64,000 nucleotides of DNA. Source: Flagellimonas profundi (GTDB lineage Bacteria > Bacteroidota > Bacteroidia > Flavobacteriales > Flavobacteriaceae). Below are positions 42,116 through 53,277 of the stretch, in pieces. How positions within the stretch are numbered: position 1 is the first letter of the stretch; every line of letters begins with the position of its first letter. Where the stretch lies: contig NZ_JAFLNM010000001.1 of NCBI RefSeq assembly GCF_017313275.1, positions 248,001 to 312,000 on the forward strand, read 5' to 3'. Both the position numbers and the translations under genes were made by a program. Below the pieces are notes generated by a model. It was not told the origin of the DNA, ran no database searches, and saw nothing but the letters and a program-made list of their open reading frames with translations.

Positions 42116-43081
42116 ATGAACATGGGACAACATATTGATATTTTTGCACCTGAAATTGAGCTTTACCAGGAAATCCAAAGACTTAAAAGAGAAAAAAATG
42201 CGGTACTGCTCTCTCATTATTATCAACGTCCTGAAATACAGGATGTTGCTGATTACGTAGGGGATAGCCTGGACCTTTCACGGGCAGCTGCCAGCACTGA
42301 TGCGGATATTATCGTATTTGCAGGAGTGCATTTTATGGCAGAAACGGCCAAGATTCTAAATCCGACCAAAAAGGTATTGTTGCCGGATCTGGCTGCAGGT
42401 TGTTCACTGGCCGACTCCTGCCCACCAGAAGCTTTTGAGCCCTTTGTGAAAGCGCATCCGAATCACGTTGTGGTCACGTACGTCAACTGTTCGGCAGAGA
42501 TCAAGGCTATGAGCGATTATGTGTGTACCTCTTCCAATGCCCTTAAAATCATTTCAGCGATTCCTGGAACCGTTCCCATAATATTTGCGCCGGACAAGAA
42601 CCTGGGCAGTTATCTGATTGAACAGACCGGAAGGGATATGTTGTTGTGGGATGGCAGCTGTATGGTCCACGAAGCTTTCTGTATCGACAAATTGTTGGAT
42701 TTATGGAGAATGCACCCGGATGCAAAAGTTATTGCCCATCCTGAATCCGAAAAACATATCTTGAAAATAGCAAACTATATCGGTTCCACTTCTGCAATGA
42801 TAGCCTATGCAAAGCACCACCCTAAGGAAAAATATATTGTAGCTACCGAGGCCGGTATCCTTCACGAGATGCAAAAGGAAGTCCCGAACACCATACTGAT
42901 TCCCGCCCCGGCAATGGAGGACAATCATTGTGCCTGTAGCGAATGTGCTTTCATGAAAACAAATACCCTTCAAAAAACATACCGTTGTCTCAGGGATGAG
43001 ACCCCTGAGGTTGAAGTTCGGGAAACCATTGTGGAAAAAGCTTTGATCCCCATAGAACGGATGTTGAAACTTTCCAAATAA
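42116..43081 (+). CDS. nadA: Quinolinate synthase
   Basis: A 321-residue 4Fe-4S enzyme. The cluster cysteines are in [21 protein letters not shown] and [31 protein letters not shown] is the N-terminal signature. It condenses iminoaspartate with dihydroxyacetone phosphate to quinolinate for NAD. It pairs with nadB seven bases downstream. Its oxygen- and NO-sensitive cluster fits with the Fe-S regulator gene divergent from it. Confidence 0.94.
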
Positions 43082-43088
43082 GTCAAGA

Positions 43089-44657
43089 ATGGTTTCAACA
43101 GACTACCTAGTGATAGGTTCGGGAATTGCCGGATTGTCTTTTGCCCTAAAGATGGCACATAAATTTCCCGACCGTACCGTATGCATCACGACCAAATCCG
43201 ACGCAGGGGATTCCAACACAAAACATGCCCAAGGAGGTATTGCGGCAGTATCCGATTTGGAAACAGACTCTTTTCAAAAACATATATCCGATACCTTGGT
43301 CGCAGGGGATGGACTATGTGATCCCTCTATAGTGGGGATGGTGGTAAGGAGAGGTCCTGAACGAATAAAGGAATTGATGTCTTGTGGTGTTCCTTTTGAT
43401 AAGGGAAAGAATGGTCAATTGGCCTTAGGACGGGAGGGAGGCCATGCAGAATCCCGCATTGTACACCATAAGGACCATACGGGACAAGAGATAGCATCCA
43501 CCCTTTTAGATCAAGTATATGGACGGCACAACATTACAGTCTTTGAGCACCATTTTGCCATAGACCTTATAACGGAGTACCGGATTTATGGAACCAAACC
43601 AAGTAAACCGACTTGTTTTGGAGCTTATATGCTTGACCAAAATACGGGTAAAGTGCGGACCTTTCGAGCAAGGAACACGGTTTTGGCCACTGGTGGGATC
43701 GGAACAATCTATGGTCATACCACAAATCCCTCGGTGGCCACTGGGGATGGTATTGCCATGGCCTACAGGGCAGGGGCGCAGATTCAAGATATGGAGTTTG
43801 TCCAATTTCACCCTACAGTACTTTACGAAGGCAAGGCTGGCCAGTCATTTTTGATCTCGGAGGCCATAAGGGGTTTTGGTGCATATTTAAGAAACCAAAA
43901 AGGACATCGTTTTATGCCCGATTACGATTCAAGAGCGGAGCTTGCACCCCGGGATATTGTTTCCAGAAGTATTGACCAAGAGCTCAAAAAATATGACGAT
44001 CCCTTCGTATATCTGGACTGTACACATCTAAATTCAAAAGCGCTCAGGGTACGGTTTCCCAACATTTATGAAGCATGTCGGAAGCGGCAAATCAAGCTTG
44101 AAACGGATTGGATACCCATTGTTCCAGCCGCACATTACCTCTGTGGTGGCATTATGGTGGATTCAAACGGAAGAACGACCATAACCAATCTTTTTGCCTG
44201 TGGCGAATGCTCCAGGACTGGATTGCACGGGGCCAATAGATTGGCATCCAACTCCTTATTGGAAGCCTTGGTGTATGCCCATAATATTTTTGAGTATTTG
44301 GGATACCAGAAGCTATTTTCACCCTCGGTCGTTATGCCCGAATGGGAGGGTATGGGAGTTGATGCTATCCAGGATGGAAACCCTGTCGGACAATACAGGG
44401 ATCGATTACAGCTACTTATGCAGGATGATGTGGGGATTGTCCGAAGTACCGCGCGTATGCAAAAAGCAATCAAACAATTGGATACGATGTACAGCGAAAT
44501 AGAGGAACTATATCGGACAACAAAAATGAACGTAGCCCTTTGTGAATTGCGGAATATGGTCCATGTGGCCCGTCTCATTGTCGAGCAGTGCCTGAGGAGA
44601 AAGGAAAATAAGGGCGGGTTCTACAATATTGATTTTGAGCTTGTCAGAAATGTTTAA
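43089..44657 (+). CDS. nadB: L-aspartate oxidase
   Basis: A 522-residue FAD protein: YLVIGSGIAGLSFALKMA dinucleotide motif, KHAQGGIAAV, GREGGHAESRIVHHKDHTG, and the catalytic-type segment RAELAPRDIVSRSID, then CGGIMVDSNGRTT and HGANRLASNSLLEALVY. It oxidises L-aspartate to iminoaspartate for NadA, using O2 or fumarate, so it can work without oxygen. Cotranscribed with nadA. Confidence 0.94.
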   Translation: MVSTDYLVIGSGIAGLSFALKMAHKFPDRTVCITTKSDAGDSNTKHAQGGIAAVSDLETDSFQKHISDTLVAGDGLCDPSIVGMVVRRGPERIKELMSCGVPFDKGKNGQLALGREGGHAESRIVHHKDHTGQEIASTLLDQVYGRHNITVFEHHFAIDLITEYRIYGTKPSKPTCFGAYMLDQNTGKVRTFRARNTVLATGGIGTIYGHTTNPSVATGDGIAMAYRAGAQIQDMEFVQFHPTVLYEGKAGQSFLISEAIRGFGAYLRNQKGHRFMPDYDSRAELAPRDIVSRSIDQELKKYDDPFVYLDCTHLNSKALRVRFPNIYEACRKRQIKLETDWIPIVPAAHYLCGGIMVDSNGRTTITNLFACGECSRTGLHGANRLASNSLLEALVYAHNIFEYLGYQKLFSPSVVMPEWEGMGVDAIQDGNPVGQYRDRLQLLMQDDVGIVRSTARMQKAIKQLDTMYSEIEELYRTTKMNVALCELRNMVHVARLIVEQCLRRKENKGGFYNIDFELVRNV

Positions 44658-44677: not shown

Positions 44678-45286
44678 ATGTCACAAAATGTAAAAAATAT
44701 GATTCAAGGCGGAATCGAAAATGGGATGGATTATATTGAATATGTCACCATGCTGAACGTCCTAGTCGCAAAGGGAAAAACCACCGGGTCAGAACAGAGT
44801 GAGCAACGGATCGCCAACACCAAATTAAACGCATCCAGGATACGAAGGATAGATAAAAAGGTATCCATTGCAGAGGACCAACTGAAGGTGTTCCAGAACA
44901 TTTCCGAAAAACAGGTTTGGTTGGTACTGTTGGAGAGTTGGTGCTCGGATGGTGCACAAGCTATACCTGTTTTCAACAAGTTGGCCAAATCGACCCCGAA
45001 CATTGAGTTGAAAATTATCATGAGGGATGAGAACCCAAAACTCATGGATCGTTTTCTAACCAACGGGACACGCTCCATTCCCAAACTCCTTGTATCGAAC
45101 GAGGAGGGTGATCTATTGCATATTTGGGGACCGAGACCTGAAGTGGCCGCTAAGATGGTCGAAGCGTATAAAGAACAATATGGGAAAGTGGATGAAAAGT
45201 TTAAAAGGGAGCTACAGATCTGGTATAATAAAGACGGTGGCAAAACCATAGTGGACGAACTTATCAGGATGGTAAGTCCACTATGA
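44678..45286 (+). CDS. Thioredoxin-family protein with single-cysteine SWCSDG motif
   Basis: A 202-residue cytoplasmic protein with a thioredoxin fold at about 65-175. The active-site loop reads ESWCSDGAQ, keeping only the first cysteine of CxxC; TRSIPKLLV supplies the cis-Pro. An N-terminal helical region (about 1-60) and a C-terminal helix (FKRELQIWYN) flank it. Such Thioredoxin_9-like proteins are common in Bacteroidota; the function is not established. It follows nadB by 20 bases. Confidence 0.78.
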   Translation: MSQNVKNMIQGGIENGMDYIEYVTMLNVLVAKGKTTGSEQSEQRIANTKLNASRIRRIDKKVSIAEDQLKVFQNISEKQVWLVLLESWCSDGAQAIPVFNKLAKSTPNIELKIIMRDENPKLMDRFLTNGTRSIPKLLVSNEEGDLLHIWGPRPEVAAKMVEAYKEQYGKVDEKFKRELQIWYNKDGGKTIVDELIRMVSPL

Positions 45287-45383: not shown

Positions 45384-47195
45384 TCATTGACGTGCCATTT
45401 CCTTCAAATGAAGCATATGGTCTGATATGCCATCCAGAATTGATTTGAAATCCACCAAAACCCTTAATGTTTGCGAGTTGTTGTAAAGGTCCTTGTTTGC
45501 CCTTCCAAATAGGTTTTGATAATAAGAAATCCCTTCGTGCAAATTATCGGTAAAATTGGATAAGTAAGTTATTTCCTTGTCCGTTATGGGCCCCGTTACT
45601 TCCGCGATCTTATCTTTTAGAAAATCCACATAAATTTTAAGTTCCTTGATGAACATATGGGGCCGATCGGTTCTCTTGATCAAGTTGGATTTCCCGTATA
45701 TATGTTGCATCATTTCCTTAAGGCTGGCAATTTTTGAAAAATAGGCCATGTTCGGTCCTGGACAAATGGAAACACCATTCCCTTCGGTCTTGGTATCCAA
45801 CCCATGCTTTATTAGGGCTGAAGTACCCAGTCCCACACATGCACATGATTTCTCGACAATTTTATCATAGGCCCGTTGGTATGTTTCTGGGGGAAGGTTC
45901 TTGTTGTCCAATTCCTGTATTTTTAAATGTTGGTATTGTCGTGATGCCGTACATATACCTTCATTGGTGAATTCCTTGTTCATGGCCACGTATTTTTTTG
46001 GACAGGCACTACCAGGTCTGTTCTTATGTATGTTCGCCTTTTTTTCCAAATCTTTGGTATTTCCCCTAAGGCTATTGAAGGGAACGCCCAAAGGAGAGAT
46101 ATCGCTCAAGTAAAGGTCTTTCTCTTTGGCCTGTGCCAATTTGGTCAAGGTCGTGTCGTCCACCGTTGTAGCTTCGGGTACCAAAAGAAAGGGGGATCCC
46201 CAGCCCACGGAATCCAATTTGTAGTGTTCCAACAGAAAATCATGTTCTTCCGAGGTTCCCACCCCACCTTGGGCACTGACCTTAACGGGTAAGATAAATT
46301 GTGGAACATGTCGCTTTCTATGTGAAAGTGCACGAACCAGTATATTGTGGATTTCCGATACCAGGTCTTCTTTATTGTCTCGAAATTGTGCCAATATAGG
46401 TCCCATGAGATGACCATCTGTGGCAAAGGCATGTCCGCCACAGTTCAATCCCGATTCTATTCTATATTCCGATACCCATAACCCTTTCTTTGCAAGGAAC
46501 TTTCCCTGGATCAATGCCGATCTGTAATCACTGACCTTAAGGATTATTTTCTTTTTTATATTCCCGTTTTCATCTGGATAAAAATCATCAAATTCCTCGA
46601 TATATCCGTACAATCTGGGATTCATGCCCGCCGAAAAGATGACCGAGGAGCTAAGGGTGCTATTTGCATACCCCCTTAGGGCTGCATGGGCATCATTGTA
46701 CTTGTTGGATAATGGTATTTTTTTACGATAATTCCCCTTATCCAATTTGGTCATGATGTTGACCTCGATACTGCCCATGGAAAGATTGGTATCAAGAAAT
46801 GCTTGAAGAGCGGCCCTATGATTGTTTTTTTTGGTCAATTCGATAAACCGTTGCTTTAGCACTGAAGTGTCGGGCAACATATCGAAATATTGTTTTAAAC
46901 CTTCGCCATAACCGTTTGTGACATCCTTAAGTTGTTCAAATCTTTTTTCTGCCAGTTCCTTAATAAGATTGAGATATGAGGTGATTCTTTTGGCCCTGAA
47001 ATCTTTGGTGTTCTCATTGATTTCATGGTAGGGCATTTCAAACTTTTTGCAATATGCCTTTCTCAGTTTTTCCAAAAGGATGTCATCGACCAATGAAATG
47101 GCCGAGTCTATGCCCAAATGTGAAACTTTCAATGGTGTATCAATGGTGAATGCAATTCCCATGACAGGAATATGGAAGGAGTGTGGTGTTGTCAT
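45384..47195 (-). CDS. Large uncharacterised protein, TIM-barrel (nitronate monooxygenase/FabK-like) with cysteine-rich region
   Basis: A 603-residue soluble protein that I cannot place in a named family. The N-terminus (PVMGIAFTIDTPLKVSHLGID) reads like the opening strand of a flavin TIM barrel. GGHAFATDGH (about 253-262), SAQGGVGTSEEHDFLLEH (about 307-324) and VGWGSPFLLVPEAT (about 330-343) resemble the phosphate-binding end of 2-nitropropane dioxygenase/FabK enzymes. Cysteines at about 398, 415, 451, 453 and 478 could bind a cluster. The C-terminal ~120 residues are helical. It sits next to anaerobic ribonucleotide reductase on the same strand. A redox flavoenzyme is the best guess; substrate unknown. 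Confidence 0.6.
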   Translation of the reverse strand: MTTPHSFHIPVMGIAFTIDTPLKVSHLGIDSAISLVDDILLEKLRKAYCKKFEMPYHEINENTKDFRAKRITSYLNLIKELAEKRFEQLKDVTNGYGEGLKQYFDMLPDTSVLKQRFIELTKKNNHRAALQAFLDTNLSMGSIEVNIMTKLDKGNYRKKIPLSNKYNDAHAALRGYANSTLSSSVIFSAGMNPRLYGYIEEFDDFYPDENGNIKKKIILKVSDYRSALIQGKFLAKKGLWVSEYRIESGLNCGGHAFATDGHLMGPILAQFRDNKEDLVSEIHNILVRALSHRKRHVPQFILPVKVSAQGGVGTSEEHDFLLEHYKLDSVGWGSPFLLVPEATTVDDTTLTKLAQAKEKDLYLSDISPLGVPFNSLRGNTKDLEKKANIHKNRPGSACPKKYVAMNKEFTNEGICTASRQYQHLKIQELDNKNLPPETYQRAYDKIVEKSCACVGLGTSALIKHGLDTKTEGNGVSICPGPNMAYFSKIASLKEMMQHIYGKSNLIKRTDRPHMFIKELKIYVDFLKDKIAEVTGPITDKEITYLSNFTDNLHEGISYYQNLFGRANKDLYNNSQTLRVLVDFKSILDGISDHMLHLKEMARQ

Positions 47196-47367: not shown

Positions 47368-49221
47368 TTACTGATTCATTGCTTCTTGTGTTCTTAGTTT
47401 ATCGGACAGCATATCCGCCCTTTTATTTGATAAGGAACGACTGGCCTGTTGTAAATGGTAATGTCGCAGTCCATGCTCTTTTTGTCTTCCGGAACTGAAG
47501 TTGGAGACGCGTTTGAGATAACCGATAACCCGGGTGGCGTGGTCCACGTTGCTCGAATGACAGTCACTGCATTCAAAAAGTGTTTTCTTGTCAATATGGG
47601 AACAATCATTACAAATGGTGATGCGGATATTGAAACAAAAATAATTGCATCCTGCCTTAGCGGTGGCATGGATCAATTTTTTAAAACCTTCCCGGTTCGG
47701 GGCCTCTTCCAGGTTCAGGTGCAGTGCCGATCCCCCATCCAGATATTGTATGGTTTCGGAACCATGTAATATGATTTTGTCCAACGCATTTATACTCTCG
47801 TCCTCAACAATATAAAAGTACGAGTTATAACAGTCCCTGGGCACGAAAAAGCCGTCTTCACGATCCCATTTCGCATTTTTCACGCCCAGGTTTTCCGCAG
47901 GGACAAATTCCGTATTGAACATATAGCCATAGTGTTCACGGGCTTGCCTGTTTTCTTGATAGATATTTTTGAGGTGGTGGTTTACAAATTCCTTATAGTC
48001 ATCGTTGTTGCCCACTTTTATTCCTTGGCTTTCTGCAGCTTCGGCCATACCGTTGATTCCAATGGTAAGGAATTGTTTGTCCAAGGAAATTAGACCGGCA
48101 TGGTACACGGGCAACATACCGGCTTTTTTATACTCATCTATCAATTTTCTAAAGGCCACCTGATATTTATGTACTTTTCGGACTTCTTTTACGATATCCG
48201 CCCCTTGTTGAATCAATCGGTTCATGTTCAAAGTGATGACGTTGATCGATCCCGTGGCAACCCCACCGGCACCCAAGGAATAACTAAAGGTATGGTCGCT
48301 GATTTCGTTTCGTAAACGACAGCAGGACGCCAAACTATCGGCATTTTCGGATTGGTATATGAAAAATGAGTTTCCATTGCTCAGTTCCCTTGCACACATT
48401 TCGGTGAATTCCGAATCGACCGGGGCACCGTCCTTGGTCAACATGGCCGCGGTCACCACGGGAAAGGTCAAAATGGCCTTGGTACGTTCCTCGTTGAACC
48501 ATTCCATAAAAAAGGCTTGCAGTTTTTTTAAACTCTCCCATTGGGGTCGTCCCATTTCCGGGAATATAAAATCCCCGAACATACTGTCAAAATAAGGTTT
48601 GTCATAAAGGGAAATGTTCCAGAAAACGGATTGGTATCCCCGTGCCGCTGCAGGTTGATTGATAGCATAAACCACATGTTGCAAATGGTTGGCAATACTG
48701 GTTTTATGGGTTTTTAGGTAATCAGGTCCATAGTCTTTTGAAGCAAAATAATCGAAGTACATCAAAAATTCAACCGTGGCCAAAGCCCCAGCAAACTGAG
48801 AGCTTACGGCAAAAACCAAATTGACAAATTCGCCACAAAAACTCTCCAAATGTTTAGGGGCCCTACTTTCACCACCTAGCTTGGTAAGTCCGTCCAACAA
48901 GAAGGGGTACATGCTAATGGATGCACAATAGGGCTTAAGGGAAGTTTCATCGTGCACATATATTTCATGGGATTCAATTTGACGGACATACTCTTCTGCC
49001 AGGTCATCGCCGAACAATGAGGATATCTTTTGTTGTATCAGGGCCCGGTTCACCTGTATATTGATGTCCTTGTTGAGTTCCGCCTCCATGGTGGCGATAT
49101 TTTTGGAAGTCACATTGGCATTGGCATCTACCTTCGAACCATTGGCGGCGTTGCTGGAGTGAAGATAGTGGTCGATAAACGAGATTTTTTCTGCGATTTG
49201 TGCCTTGGTGAGTCGTATCAT
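47368..49221 (-). CDS. nrdD: Anaerobic ribonucleoside-triphosphate reductase, no ATP-cone
   Basis: A 617-residue class III reductase. Substrate-domain segments include GGSALHLNLEEAPN and YMFNTEFVPAENLGVKNAKWD. The C-terminal Zn site has CNDC and CSDC, and the glycyl-radical loop is RVIGYL. About 95 residues shorter than E. coli NrdD: the N-terminal ATP-cone is missing, so the usual dATP feedback site is absent. It makes dNTPs without oxygen using formate or a thiol reductant. nrdG lies just upstream in the same unit. Confidence 0.93.
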   Translation of the reverse strand: MIRLTKAQIAEKISFIDHYLHSSNAANGSKVDANANVTSKNIATMEAELNKDINIQVNRALIQQKISSLFGDDLAEEYVRQIESHEIYVHDETSLKPYCASISMYPFLLDGLTKLGGESRAPKHLESFCGEFVNLVFAVSSQFAGALATVEFLMYFDYFASKDYGPDYLKTHKTSIANHLQHVVYAINQPAAARGYQSVFWNISLYDKPYFDSMFGDFIFPEMGRPQWESLKKLQAFFMEWFNEERTKAILTFPVVTAAMLTKDGAPVDSEFTEMCARELSNGNSFFIYQSENADSLASCCRLRNEISDHTFSYSLGAGGVATGSINVITLNMNRLIQQGADIVKEVRKVHKYQVAFRKLIDEYKKAGMLPVYHAGLISLDKQFLTIGINGMAEAAESQGIKVGNNDDYKEFVNHHLKNIYQENRQAREHYGYMFNTEFVPAENLGVKNAKWDREDGFFVPRDCYNSYFYIVEDESINALDKIILHGSETIQYLDGGSALHLNLEEAPNREGFKKLIHATAKAGCNYFCFNIRITICNDCSHIDKKTLFECSDCHSSNVDHATRVIGYLKRVSNFSSGRQKEHGLRHYHLQQASRSLSNKRADMLSDKLRTQEAMNQ

Positions 49222-49227
49222 AAGGAA

Positions 49228-49677
49228 TTATTTAGAGATGAATAAATGATTGAGTATTGTATTGGTCCGTAGATCAAGGAAAACCTGATTGGTACGCTTA
49301 CTTTCCAACCCGCCCCGGGAGGGGTCCCACTTTCCCGTTTTAAGAAAGGTCAGGTGATTGCATATATGTGATGATATTTTCTCTTGACCCGTATAAAGAC
49401 AGGTTTTGTAGCCTTGGTCTTGAGCATGTTGAAGGTATTCGGTCAAGATGCGATGGTGCCATTCGCCCCCCATAAAAACGACACAGGTGGCAAAACCGAC
49501 ATATTGGTTCAAAAGGGCTTTAAAATATTCAGGGGTCAGCTCATGCCCATTTCCTTCCTTCCATAAAAAAGGGGAATGACAGCCATGACATCGAAGCGGA
49601 CATCCCGAAATCGAAAAACAAAGGCTGATTTCACCGGGAACTTCTTGGAGTACTACCTGAAAGTCATGATAAAACAT
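49228..49677 (-). CDS. nrdG: Anaerobic ribonucleotide reductase activating enzyme
   Basis: A 149-residue radical SAM protein with the CxxxCxxC cluster motif (Cys26, Cys30, Cys33 in GCPLRCHGCH) and VVFMGGEW for SAM binding. It uses a 4Fe-4S cluster and SAM to make the glycyl radical on NrdD. It is upstream of nrdD with a six-base gap; the order nrdG-nrdD is inverted compared with E. coli. Confidence 0.92.
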   Translation of the reverse strand: MFYHDFQVVLQEVPGEISLCFSISGCPLRCHGCHSPFLWKEGNGHELTPEYFKALLNQYVGFATCVVFMGGEWHHRILTEYLQHAQDQGYKTCLYTGQEKISSHICNHLTFLKTGKWDPSRGGLESKRTNQVFLDLRTNTILNHLFISK

Positions 49678-49938: not shown

Positions 49939-50226
49939 CTAAATGATATGGAATAGAATGACCATGGTATTGAATACAATACTTAGTATCAAAAGGTTAA
50001 AAGTGGTCAAAGGTTTCAATTGGGCAAGTACGGCACCGTTAAAGGCCATACAGAGTATGGTGACCAAAAAGAGCAAGATCATTTTTAAGACCATGTCCAT
50101 ACTGCCCATCAACAGTACCATGGCAGCAGCGGAGCCCAAGCAGCTCTGACCAATGATGGCAATGGTCGAATAACCCAATTGATTTTTTTTGAATTCATGG
50201 TACCCTCTGTCGTATATTTTTTTCAT
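49939..50226 (-). CDS. Small membrane protein in the haemerythrin/RIC group
   Basis: About 95 residues started at MKKIYDRGYHEFKKNQLGYS (50226), just after the haemerythrin stop; an upstream in-frame ATG at 50286 would overlap that gene. Three hydrophobic helices follow (CLGSAAAMVLLMGSMDMVL, ILLFLVTILCMAFNGAVLA, FNLLILSIVFNTMVILF). No family is recognised, and the function is unknown. Its place after two di-iron protein genes suggests a link to NO or oxygen stress. Confidence 0.65.
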   Translation of the reverse strand: MKKIYDRGYHEFKKNQLGYSTIAIIGQSCLGSAAAMVLLMGSMDMVLKMILLFLVTILCMAFNGAVLAQLKPLTTFNLLILSIVFNTMVILFHII

Positions 50227-50242
50227 TGCACTTGCTTTGTAT

Positions 50243-50704
50243 TTATTCCCAGAAAGGGTCCCTGAGATTGTCGTTGAATTTTTCATTACTGTGTTGTTTT
50301 TCTATGATATCCAATTGCTTTTTATTGGCCATTTCTTGAACATGGTTGAAAAGCTGTCTTTCCTCGAATCGAATATGTTGTTCCAATGTTTCTTCGATTT
50401 GTCCCAAAGTTTTCATGTCCGCCGTGGTCGATGTGAACAAGCGGATCAATCTTCTGTGATCGGAAAGTGCCTTTTTCACCCATGGATGATCGTTACCCAC
50501 TATGGGGAAGATATATGTTTCCTCGAGTTCGAAATGAGGAACCAAATAGGTCTCATAAAACCAGTCTACATAATCCTTGATACGTTCCATGGGAACATTT
50601 TTAGACAGTCCGGTCCTAATTTTCCAACAAAGGAGCAAACCGTGATGATGCTCACGGCTTACTCCCTGAAGAGCACTATGTCGTTTGATAGGAGTACGCC
50701 CCAT
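50243..50704 (-). CDS. Haemerythrin-domain protein
   Basis: A 153-residue four-helix di-iron protein: SREHHHGLLLCWKIRTG on helix 1, VPHFELEETYIFPI with His-x-x-x-Glu on helix 2, LSDHRRLIRLF on helix 3 and LEQHIRFEERQLFNHV on helix 4, supplying the expected His/Glu ligands. It binds O2 or NO, or protects iron centres. It follows the RIC gene by seven bases. Confidence 0.85.
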   Translation of the reverse strand: MGRTPIKRHSALQGVSREHHHGLLLCWKIRTGLSKNVPMERIKDYVDWFYETYLVPHFELEETYIFPIVGNDHPWVKKALSDHRRLIRLFTSTTADMKTLGQIEETLEQHIRFEERQLFNHVQEMANKKQLDIIEKQHSNEKFNDNLRDPFWE

Positions 50705-52074: not shown

Positions 52075-53277
52075 TCAAGCATTTGGTCTTTTCTTTAACA
52101 ACATAAGGAATAGACTGAGGGGGATAAGGAGGGTGCTCAGAGCCAACACTTCGGTATATCCCGGAAATGTAGCGATACCCATCCAAGCAAATAGCCCTTT
52201 GGAAAAAATAAGGATTTCTGAAAGGATGAATCCCGATACATACCATAAGTAAGACTTTTTGGATATGTTCATTAGGCCAAAATAATCCATGAAAAAGAAG
52301 AGTCCCAAACTGATGACCCCAAGGAATGTCAAATGCAAATAACCTATGGTGAAATCTAGATATGTAGCGGCAATTCGGGTAAAATAGGGAATGACCGTCA
52401 ATAATTGCAGCATTACCTTAATCAGTCCCAAAGCTACACCTACTTTGAGAATGCCGGACTGTGTTCGGGATAGGGACAATACGGTAACATCATTCTTGGT
52501 ATGGGACCAAAAATAAGTCAATGCATAAAGTTGAGAGATGGCACCAATCCCGGATAGGATATAGAATACTGTGGGGGGGTCTGTCCATAAGGTGGATAGG
52601 AAAAAGGTGAATACAATGCCCAAGTTAAGGGATAGGAAAAAACGATTGAAACTCTTATTGGGGATTTCCAGACCACGCTGTTCCAATGCGTAAATAAACA
52701 AGCCGATCAAGGCAAGTATCATCCAGCCATTATACTGAAAGTGGAGGTAAAAATAAATGGATAACCGATACCAAATGGATTGTGCCCCTATGGTATTCAT
52801 TATAATGCCCAAAACCCAAGGCCCTATACTGGAAACCACCATAAAGACAAGGGCTGTCTTCACACATTTCAGCCCTTTACTGTCCTTAAGTTTTGGGTCA
52901 ATGTTCTTCCAAAAATGATAGGTGAAGAAGTAGGACATGATCAGAAAAAGGGTGGAAAAGATAATGGAAAACAAAGCATATCCTTGAAAGGGAAAAGTCA
53001 GTAACATACCGATTAAGGTGCCTTGGGTTCCCCAAAACAACTGTTTATACCTTTTACTGACGCTTTGCTTTTCCACAAAACCATAATGGAGCAAGGTAGT
53101 CAAGGCTACATACACCCAACCCAAGAGGGCAATATGGGAATGGGTATGGACCATATACCTGTAGTTGAACCTAAAGGAAAAGATCGGGTAGGAGCGGAGC
53201 AATAGGCCCAAGACTGCGGCAACGCAGAAATAGATGACGGCAATTCGTAGATGGTGACGATATACCTTGTCCTTCAT
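52075..53277 (-). CDS. Polytopic membrane protein resembling haem-copper oxidase subunit I, in the nos cluster
   Basis: A 400-residue protein with about 12 helices. Histidines lie within or beside helices: HTHSH at residues 44-48, LHFQYNGW mid-protein, and GYLHLTFLG towards the C-terminus. This spacing recalls the haem-ligand helices of subunit I of cbb3-type oxidases, and distantly NnrS. It lacks recognisable full catalytic motifs. It follows nosY by 24 bases on the same strand, so it is probably made with the nos proteins. A haem- or copper-related role is likely; nothing firmer can be said. Confidence 0.6.
   Translation of the reverse strand: MKDKVYRHHLRIAVIYFCVAAVLGLLLRSYPIFSFRFNYRYMVHTHSHIALLGWVYVALTTLLHYGFVEKQSVSKRYKQLFWGTQGTLIGMLLTFPFQGYALFSIIFSTLFLIMSYFFTYHFWKNIDPKLKDSKGLKCVKTALVFMVVSSIGPWVLGIIMNTIGAQSIWYRLSIYFYLHFQYNGWMILALIGLFIYALEQRGLEIPNKSFNRFFLSLNLGIVFTFFLSTLWTDPPTVFYILSGIGAISQLYALTYFWSHTKNDVTVLSLSRTQSGILKVGVALGLIKVMLQLLTVIPYFTRIAATYLDFTIGYLHLTFLGVISLGLFFFMDYFGLMNISKKSYLWYVSGFILSEILIFSKGLFAWMGIATFPGYTEVLALSTLLIPLSLFLMLLKKRPNA

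Follow-up and report, generated by a model that had tools for sequence, protein, structure and literature searches.

The window analysed here, a stretch of 64,000 nucleotides of Flagellimonas profundi DNA, encodes a 603-aa protein that belongs to a conserved, undescribed family. Based on profile and sequence comparisons, we conclude that the family shares common descent with the cluster-bearing FabX branch of the nitronate monooxygenase (NMO) superfamily but has a rearranged set of cluster ligands. As a result, the protein is regarded as a variant and not as a member of FabX, and it is very probably an FMN/Fe-S oxidoreductase of that branch. By analogy, it may also act as FabX does, as an acyl-thioester dehydrogenase/isomerase that starts unsaturated fatty acids without FabA or a desaturase; this fuller reading is tentative, though a serious contender. 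The computed evidence comprises the fold, the homology to the FabX group, the invariant histidine and cysteine residues, and the distribution of the family.

The protein is encoded by an uninterrupted minus-strand ORF of 603 codons (ATG at 47195, stop ending at 45384), while the plus-strand reading from 45384 contains 23 stops. The 4.0 Mb genome has one copy of the gene. As the initial annotation had noted, the gene adjoins an anaerobic ribonucleotide reductase: its immediate upstream neighbours, encoded on the same strand, are nrdD and nrdG, and 172 bp separate nrdD from the start codon of the 603-aa gene (Table 1). The NO genes that it had placed close by are found farther out in the window in the form of a NorB-like 791-aa protein, RIC (iron-sulfur repair), and a hemerythrin, together with two Rrf2 regulators. 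A 115-aa ORF between nrdG and the hemerythrin gene (49939-50286, minus strand) has no NCBIfam match. A 400-aa protein that is membrane-like by eye (52075-53277, minus strand) has no Pfam or NCBIfam match at the thresholds used. Its cluster is present in 9 of 57 neighbourhoods, 8 of which also contain RIC, and it is, besides the 603-aa gene, another gene without a name in the NO/anaerobic neighbourhood.

Table 1. Features of the 603-aa gene and its surroundings (window positions).
Feature	Position	Strand	Basis
603-aa FabX-like protein (P0001), putative FMN/[4Fe-4S] enzyme	45384..47195	-	ORF, model, profiles
Codons E247-H255 (ESGLNCGGH): invariant E247, C252, catalytic-type H255	46431..46457	-	alignments
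Codons C398-C478, five invariant cysteines, putative [4Fe-4S] subdomain	45762..46004	-	alignments, profiles
Codons of the C-terminal helical tail (residues about 503-603), outside the FabX-aligned part	45387..45689	-	model
nrdD, class III ribonucleotide reductase, upstream neighbour	47368..49221	-	TIGR02827
nrdG, activating enzyme	49228..49677	-	TIGR02826
Thioredoxin_9 protein, convergent neighbour	44678..45286	+	domain match
nadA and nadB, downstream, convergent	42116..44657	+	domain matches
TTGATTGGTGTGAA, differing from TTGAYN4RTCAA at one position, 68 bp ahead of the start codon	47264..47277	.	pattern match

The initial annotation could match the protein to no named family, and it is likewise without a significant match in Pfam, NCBIfam, PADLOC, or the PDB sequences. 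No Pfam or NCBIfam match exceeds a curated cut-off, the FabK equivalog TIGR03151 included; PADLOC gives no match at all, the best E value among PDB sequences is 1.6, and PHROGs give only weak matches (best E 0.012, in the tail). The family profile finds nothing in the PDB below E 0.2. The Pfam family of nitronate monooxygenase, PF03060, does not match the protein up to E 5 and is absent among the best 25 of 35 families matched by 49 members of the family at E 0.1, yet it does match one FabX orthologue, one 419-aa protein, and one 490-aa protein. The most common Pfam family among those listed is Apolipoprotein (10 of the 49 members, scanned singly; best E 6e-6). Apolipoprotein (E 0.2 in the PDB profile search), CFAP77, and a PHROG of unknown function (E 0.012, residues 488-573) have been attributed to noise from the helical tail or to chance. 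A defence gene was rejected because PADLOC has no match, and a mobile or phage gene because relatives are absent from viral contigs, plasmids, and phages at the sensitivity used; a viral structure library searched with the model gives nothing at E 0.001. A full-text search of open-licence PMC papers found no literature on the family.

The AlphaFold2 model (49-row alignment; pLDDT 89.1, pTM 0.91) predicts the TIM barrel of the nitronate-monooxygenase/FabK type that had been proposed from the sequence, and the helical tail proposed with it forms the last 100 residues. Foldseek returns 30 matches up to E 0.001, all of which are NMO-superfamily entries or yeast fatty acid synthase. The former comprise PfaD, FabX, trans-AT enoyl reductases, FabK, NMO, and the quinone reductase PA1024. 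PfaD is the first match. The TM-scores stay modest, at 0.40 on the query and 0.62 on FabX. A second structural aligner places Helicobacter pylori FabX on top in five entries, the best of which (7e1q) aligns over 330 residues with Z 29.3 and an rmsd of 3.1 Å; the corresponding Z values are 25.0 for PfaD and 24.1 for FabK. The structural match to FabX extends to residue 502, and the tail lies beyond it.

All of the nitronate-monooxygenase/FabK-like glycine motifs quoted in the initial annotation are present: (C)GGHAFATDGH (252-262), SAQGGVGTSEEH (307-318), and VGWGSPFLLVPEAT (330-343). The five cysteines that it had counted in about 80 residues (398, 415, 451, 453, and 478) fall within 81, and the protein has two further cysteines, C49 and C252, the latter three residues ahead of H255. 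Conservation was assessed in 69 aligned rows (68 distinct sequences) consisting of the query, 48 relatives from genome contigs, and 20 from a search of Bacteroidota genomes; one row (L057) is the window's own gene again. Alignment A1 was made without the near duplicates L001, L003, L012, L024, L030, L036, L053, and L054, and L036 was also excluded for an unknown residue and the lack of a start codon. All 69 rows keep the five clustered cysteines, C252, and H255 without exception, and likewise E247, N146, and G310/G311, while C49 is kept in just 26. The conservation of these cysteine and histidine residues is far beyond chance, and, given their invariance, the five clustered cysteines are real and constrained.

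Pairwise BLASTP of the protein against a FabX orthologue and against a 490-aa relative gave nothing usable, so that profiles were needed. The comparison sets, drawn from genomes, were four FabX orthologues (L131, L132, L140, L141; L131 has a PDB match to FabX at 3e-71), nineteen 419-aa FabX-like proteins, and four 490-aa relatives. The control sets, labelled by motif and length, were 20 FabK-type, 13 NMO-type, and one IMPDH-type. Against a combined profile of 16 FabX and FabX-like proteins (at most eight per group), the 603-aa family gives an hhalign E value, here always that of a single comparison, of 2.1e-11 with a probability of 97%. The four FabX orthologues alone give 2.3e-5 (76%), smaller sets give 0.0012 and 4.2e-9, and the FabX-like groups with FabK and NMO added give 2.1e-9; the 419-aa group (2.8e-3, 11%) and the 490-aa group (0.011) are weak alone. 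Nothing significant is obtained with the FabK (0.053), NMO (0.47), and IMPDH (0.39) controls, or with seven unrelated neighbour families (0.13 to 0.72).

The profile alignment begins ahead of N146, covers H255 and the glycine motifs, and reaches the C-x-C motif. H255 aligns with the GGH histidine of the FabX orthologues (FabX H182), and most of the FMN contacts of FabX may have counterparts, judged by motif: N99 would correspond to N146, E175 to E247 (with a one-residue shift), G220/G221 to G310/G311, and T243 to S/T334, while the position of Q240 is an invariant glycine. C451, the first cysteine of the C-x-C motif, is aligned with the fourth cysteine in the FabX orthologues. The four-ligand set of FabX (C300, C304, C308, C320) is otherwise without equivalents, since only the C320 position is matched (by C451), and the C-x3-C-x3-C motif is kept by all four orthologues examined.

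FabX (HP0773) is the acyl-ACP dehydrogenase/isomerase with which Helicobacter pylori begins the synthesis of unsaturated fats, and it contains FMN and a [4Fe-4S] cluster (PMC8626469). The 603-aa protein shares with it the NMO-type TIM barrel, the catalytic histidine, apparently most FMN-site positions, a cysteine-rich subdomain after the barrel with one aligned cluster cysteine (C320/C451), and, read by eye from the sequences, a similar G-x-N motif close to the subdomain's end. It differs in length (603 aa vs about 363 aa, with 19% identity in the structural alignment), in the spacing of the cysteines (C-x16-C-x35-C-x-C-x24-C vs C-x3-C-x3-C-x11-C), and in having a cysteine beside the catalytic histidine, a helical insert, the C-terminal helical tail, and a change from the GGMG motif to PVMG. 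FabX is further characterised by its ACP-binding residues (alpha7, R164) and by the dehydrogenation and isomerisation of decanoyl-ACP. Because the closest relative, FabX, has both cofactors, the 603-aa protein is best read as a redox enzyme with flavin and Fe-S. The initial annotation was largely right; the kinship with FabX and the possible lipid role lay beyond it.

The cysteines could instead bind zinc, or serve as structural or redox thiols, in a flavoenzyme without an iron-sulfur cluster. The ligand spacing unlike that of FabX is in keeping with such an arrangement, and an AlphaFold model cannot show a cluster; however, one cysteine occupies the position of a ligand in the FabX cluster, which is proven by structure, and other cysteines are common with the FabX-like group, which makes a protein devoid of the cluster quite improbable.

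The FabX-like group in question consists of 419-aa Bacteroidota proteins (L112 to L118 and relatives; PF03060) that are collinear with the 603-aa protein over the barrel and the cysteine tail. BLASTP of the window protein against one of them is collinear over 325 columns with 23% identity (E 0.003, single comparison) and pairs C451 with C358 and C453 with C360. By position, C319 and C332 are the counterparts of C398 and C415, so that four cysteines of the 419-aa proteins (C319/C332/C358/C360) match C398/C415/C451/C453. Unlike the 603-aa protein, the 419-aa proteins are shorter and have a Pfam NMO match, and among the matches listed they share none of 296 Bacteroidota genomes with the 603-aa family. 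The proteins L112 to L130 are 418-428 aa long, FabX-like, and have a cysteine-rich tail; the one that was scanned matches Pfam NMO. Four proteins of about 470-500 aa from other Bacteroidota families (L133, L134, L136, L137) have the NMO fold, a C-x-C tail, and weak similarity to FabX, and probably represent another undescribed cluster-bearing branch. NGO1024 (UfaA) of Neisseria gonorrhoeae is an anaerobic unsaturated fatty acid protein, and the role proposed for the 603-aa protein would be analogous.

Other enzymes of this fold work in the opposite direction to FabX, and the 603-aa protein could be an enoyl-thioester reductase of the FabK/PfaD kind, or a reductase of polyketide or polyunsaturated lipids. 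PfaD and FabK provide the next best folds, and PfaD heads the Foldseek list. PfaD and the trans-AT PKS enoyl reductases, which share the fold at about 13% identity, act with PUFA or polyketide synthases, but no such synthase gene has been recognised in the part of the neighbours of the 603-aa gene that was scanned. FabK, the enoyl-ACP reductase II (TIGR03151), shares the fold and the glycine-rich GGH and GG(I/V) motifs but lacks the cluster cysteines, and its profile match, at E 0.053 only, is not significant. It also has an NAD(P)H-binding motif (PMC8626469). Taken together, a reductase is an improbable assignment.

One scan of species genomes yielded 56 related loci with 96 to 42% identity, the closest, 96% identical, on a MAG contig with the title Muricauda sp. 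TMED12. By record titles, the loci belong to Flavobacteriaceae, Cyclobacteriaceae, Chitinophagaceae, Marinilabiliaceae, and Prolixibacteraceae, and to MAGs of Omnitrophota, Cloacimonadota, Neomarinimicrobiota, Chlorobiota, and Ignavibacteria. The family is present in 112 of 296 sampled Bacteroidota genomes (a count that includes one partial match, G290) and in 67 of 140 genera, nearly always as one copy. One genome has a second, broken copy with internal stops (G095:C1:4371179-4372865) besides an intact one.

At least 64 of the 296 Bacteroidota genomes have a strong FabX-like match (E below 1e-25, a cut-off picked after a gap was seen among the matches listed); those listed are 62 of the 419-aa type and two FabX orthologues. 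Strong FabA matches occur in 3 of the 296, one of them over the curated cut-off. Among the matches listed, no genome of the 296 contains two of the three, that is, the 603-aa family, a FabX-like protein, and FabA, and the distribution of the 603-aa family against FabX-like proteins by genome gives a Fisher value of 4e-16 (matches listed). Phylogeny confounds this exclusion, given that 62 of the 64 listed FabX-like genomes fall in two taxonomic families; at the genus level, the zero overlap of 6 with 67 of 140 genera has a probability of 0.018, again for the matches listed.

A survey of carriers covered 35 genomes picked across the 56 loci and the window's own genome (36 in total). A FabX orthologue is also present in 2 of the 35, which rules out FabX as an absolute alternative to the 603-aa family; the remainder have FabK-strength matches or none. 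Two longer open frames in carriers (G302, G313) were considered as 419-aa FabX-like proteins and rejected, as they have no C-x-C motif and look FabK-like. FabA over the cut-off is found in none of the 36 carriers, and the weak matches to the FabA model seen in 33 reach at most 42 bits, vs a cut-off of 238. The membrane desaturase family PF00487 is present in 21 of the 36, including the genome of the window. FabA, FabX, and the membrane desaturase are all undetected in 14 carriers, mostly MAGs by title; FabM, FabN, the 490-aa type, and other routes lie outside this count. Since none of the three routes is found in these 14, the 603-aa family is the only candidate recognised there.

The 'anaerobic' part of the initial reading, an anaerobic flavin/Fe-S redox enzyme, has only indirect support. 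Among the 19 Bacteroidota genomes with NrdD over the cut-off (a twentieth, weak one was left out), 9 have the 603-aa family, 8 have a FabX-like protein, and 2 have neither. Conversely, NrdD is found in only 9 of the 112 carriers of the 603-aa family, which also occurs in Chryseobacterium, an aerobic genus.

The neighbours of the 603-aa gene vary widely between lineages (survey without row L038), and no conserved fatty-acid operon is found. Because of this inconsistency no function has been taken from the neighbours, and an operon-based assignment was discarded. The clearest adjoining lipid gene is one acyltransferase directly upstream (L028). In four loci (L021-L024; two Flavobacterium and two other Bacteroidota MAGs) the 603-aa gene follows a COX1-family gene within 74 bp, which is itself preceded by a cytochrome c gene in L022-L024. 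Elsewhere the neighbours are housekeeping genes, and in Omnitrophota they include ThiC and radical SAM genes. In five loci of Omnitrophota and a related MAG (L034, L040, L042, L044, L052), the 603-aa gene lies beside a divergent run encoding a BATS-domain radical SAM protein, a thioredoxin-reductase-like protein, and a UbiE-type methyltransferase (domains scanned in L052), with ThiC beyond the run in four of the five.

Some of these settings fit an FMN/[4Fe-4S] oxidoreductase of the same fold that acts on a non-lipid substrate (nitronate, quinone, thiol, or a nitrogen-oxide-derived compound) in the response to NO or anaerobic stress. In the window the gene lies between nrdDG/RIC/hemerythrin and nadAB, near the NorB-like gene, the COX1-family and cytochrome c genes precede it in the loci above, and NMO-fold enzymes include nitronate and quinone oxidoreductases. 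However, profile similarity to the NMO type is nil while that to the FabX group is strong, and in many loci the neighbours, as far as they were scanned, have no link to NO. A non-lipid substrate is unlikely, although it deserves consideration.

Upstream of the family genes, the pattern TGAYN4RTCA, presumably a target of FNR/CRP-type regulators, occurs in 13 of 56 loci vs 1.2 in mononucleotide shuffles. It precedes 11 of 35 non-redundant family genes and 21 of 239 other genes of the same loci (Fisher 6e-4, uncorrected, six patterns tried). This test excluded 11 loci that were near duplicates, the window as well, and any gene with less than 80 bp of intergenic DNA, and its control set includes RIC and nadA cluster genes, as expected of one regulon, and some shared divergent regions. 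TGTN6ACA, CRP-like, HcpR-like, and strict TTGAN6TCAA boxes show no enrichment over mononucleotide shuffles. The window gene has no exact TTGAYN4RTCAA upstream, and its one-mismatch box (Table 1) is not significant alone, as 19 such matches occur in the window and 15.3 are expected.

The mechanism of FabX, as proposed in PMC8626469, provides the model for the steps of the 603-aa enzyme. The enzyme would be an NMO-fold flavoenzyme with FMN in the barrel and, presumably, one iron-sulfur cluster in the subdomain behind it. An acyl thioester, most likely a medium-chain acyl-ACP, would lose a proton and a hydride from its alpha and beta carbons (C2/C3) to H255 and FMN. The cluster would accept an electron from the flavin and park it, and the trans-2-enoyl product would isomerise to the cis-3 form, the start of an unsaturated fatty acid. 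In Flagellimonas profundi, whose genome also encodes a membrane desaturase, the 603-aa enzyme would serve at low oxygen, while carriers that lack other routes would depend mainly on it. This lipid role is favoured by the separate distribution from FabX-like proteins and FabA among the matches listed for the 296 genomes, by the FNR-like box ahead of 11 of 35 genes, and by the 14 carriers in which FabA, FabX, and the membrane desaturase are all undetected. The missing lipid operon, the 2 of 35 carriers with FabX, the 21 of 36 with a desaturase-family protein, and the rarity of NrdD among the 112 carriers count against it. The electron acceptor would not necessarily be O2. Some lineages with the 603-aa family are anaerobic, which together with the nrdD setting suggests an acceptor other than O2. 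For the anaerobic gonococcal homologue, the acceptor is given as unknown in PMC11300592.

A broader and rather doubtful proposal is that, in those Bacteroidota, Omnitrophota, and related phyla in which FabA and FabX are missing, the family starts unsaturated fatty acids independently of oxygen, as a widespread but unrecognised route with a different cysteine set for the cluster and a carrier other than O2. To our knowledge, the synthesis of unsaturated lipids without oxygen by bacteria that lack FabA is an open question. FabX answers the absence of FabA in some bacteria, with O2 as the only electron acceptor found so far (PMC8626469). The 603-aa family offers a concrete candidate, present in over a third of the Bacteroidota genomes sampled and in Omnitrophota. 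It suggests that the same barrel can carry a cluster site built in a second way. Through this family, many environmental bacteria may be able to form unsaturated fats when oxygen is absent.
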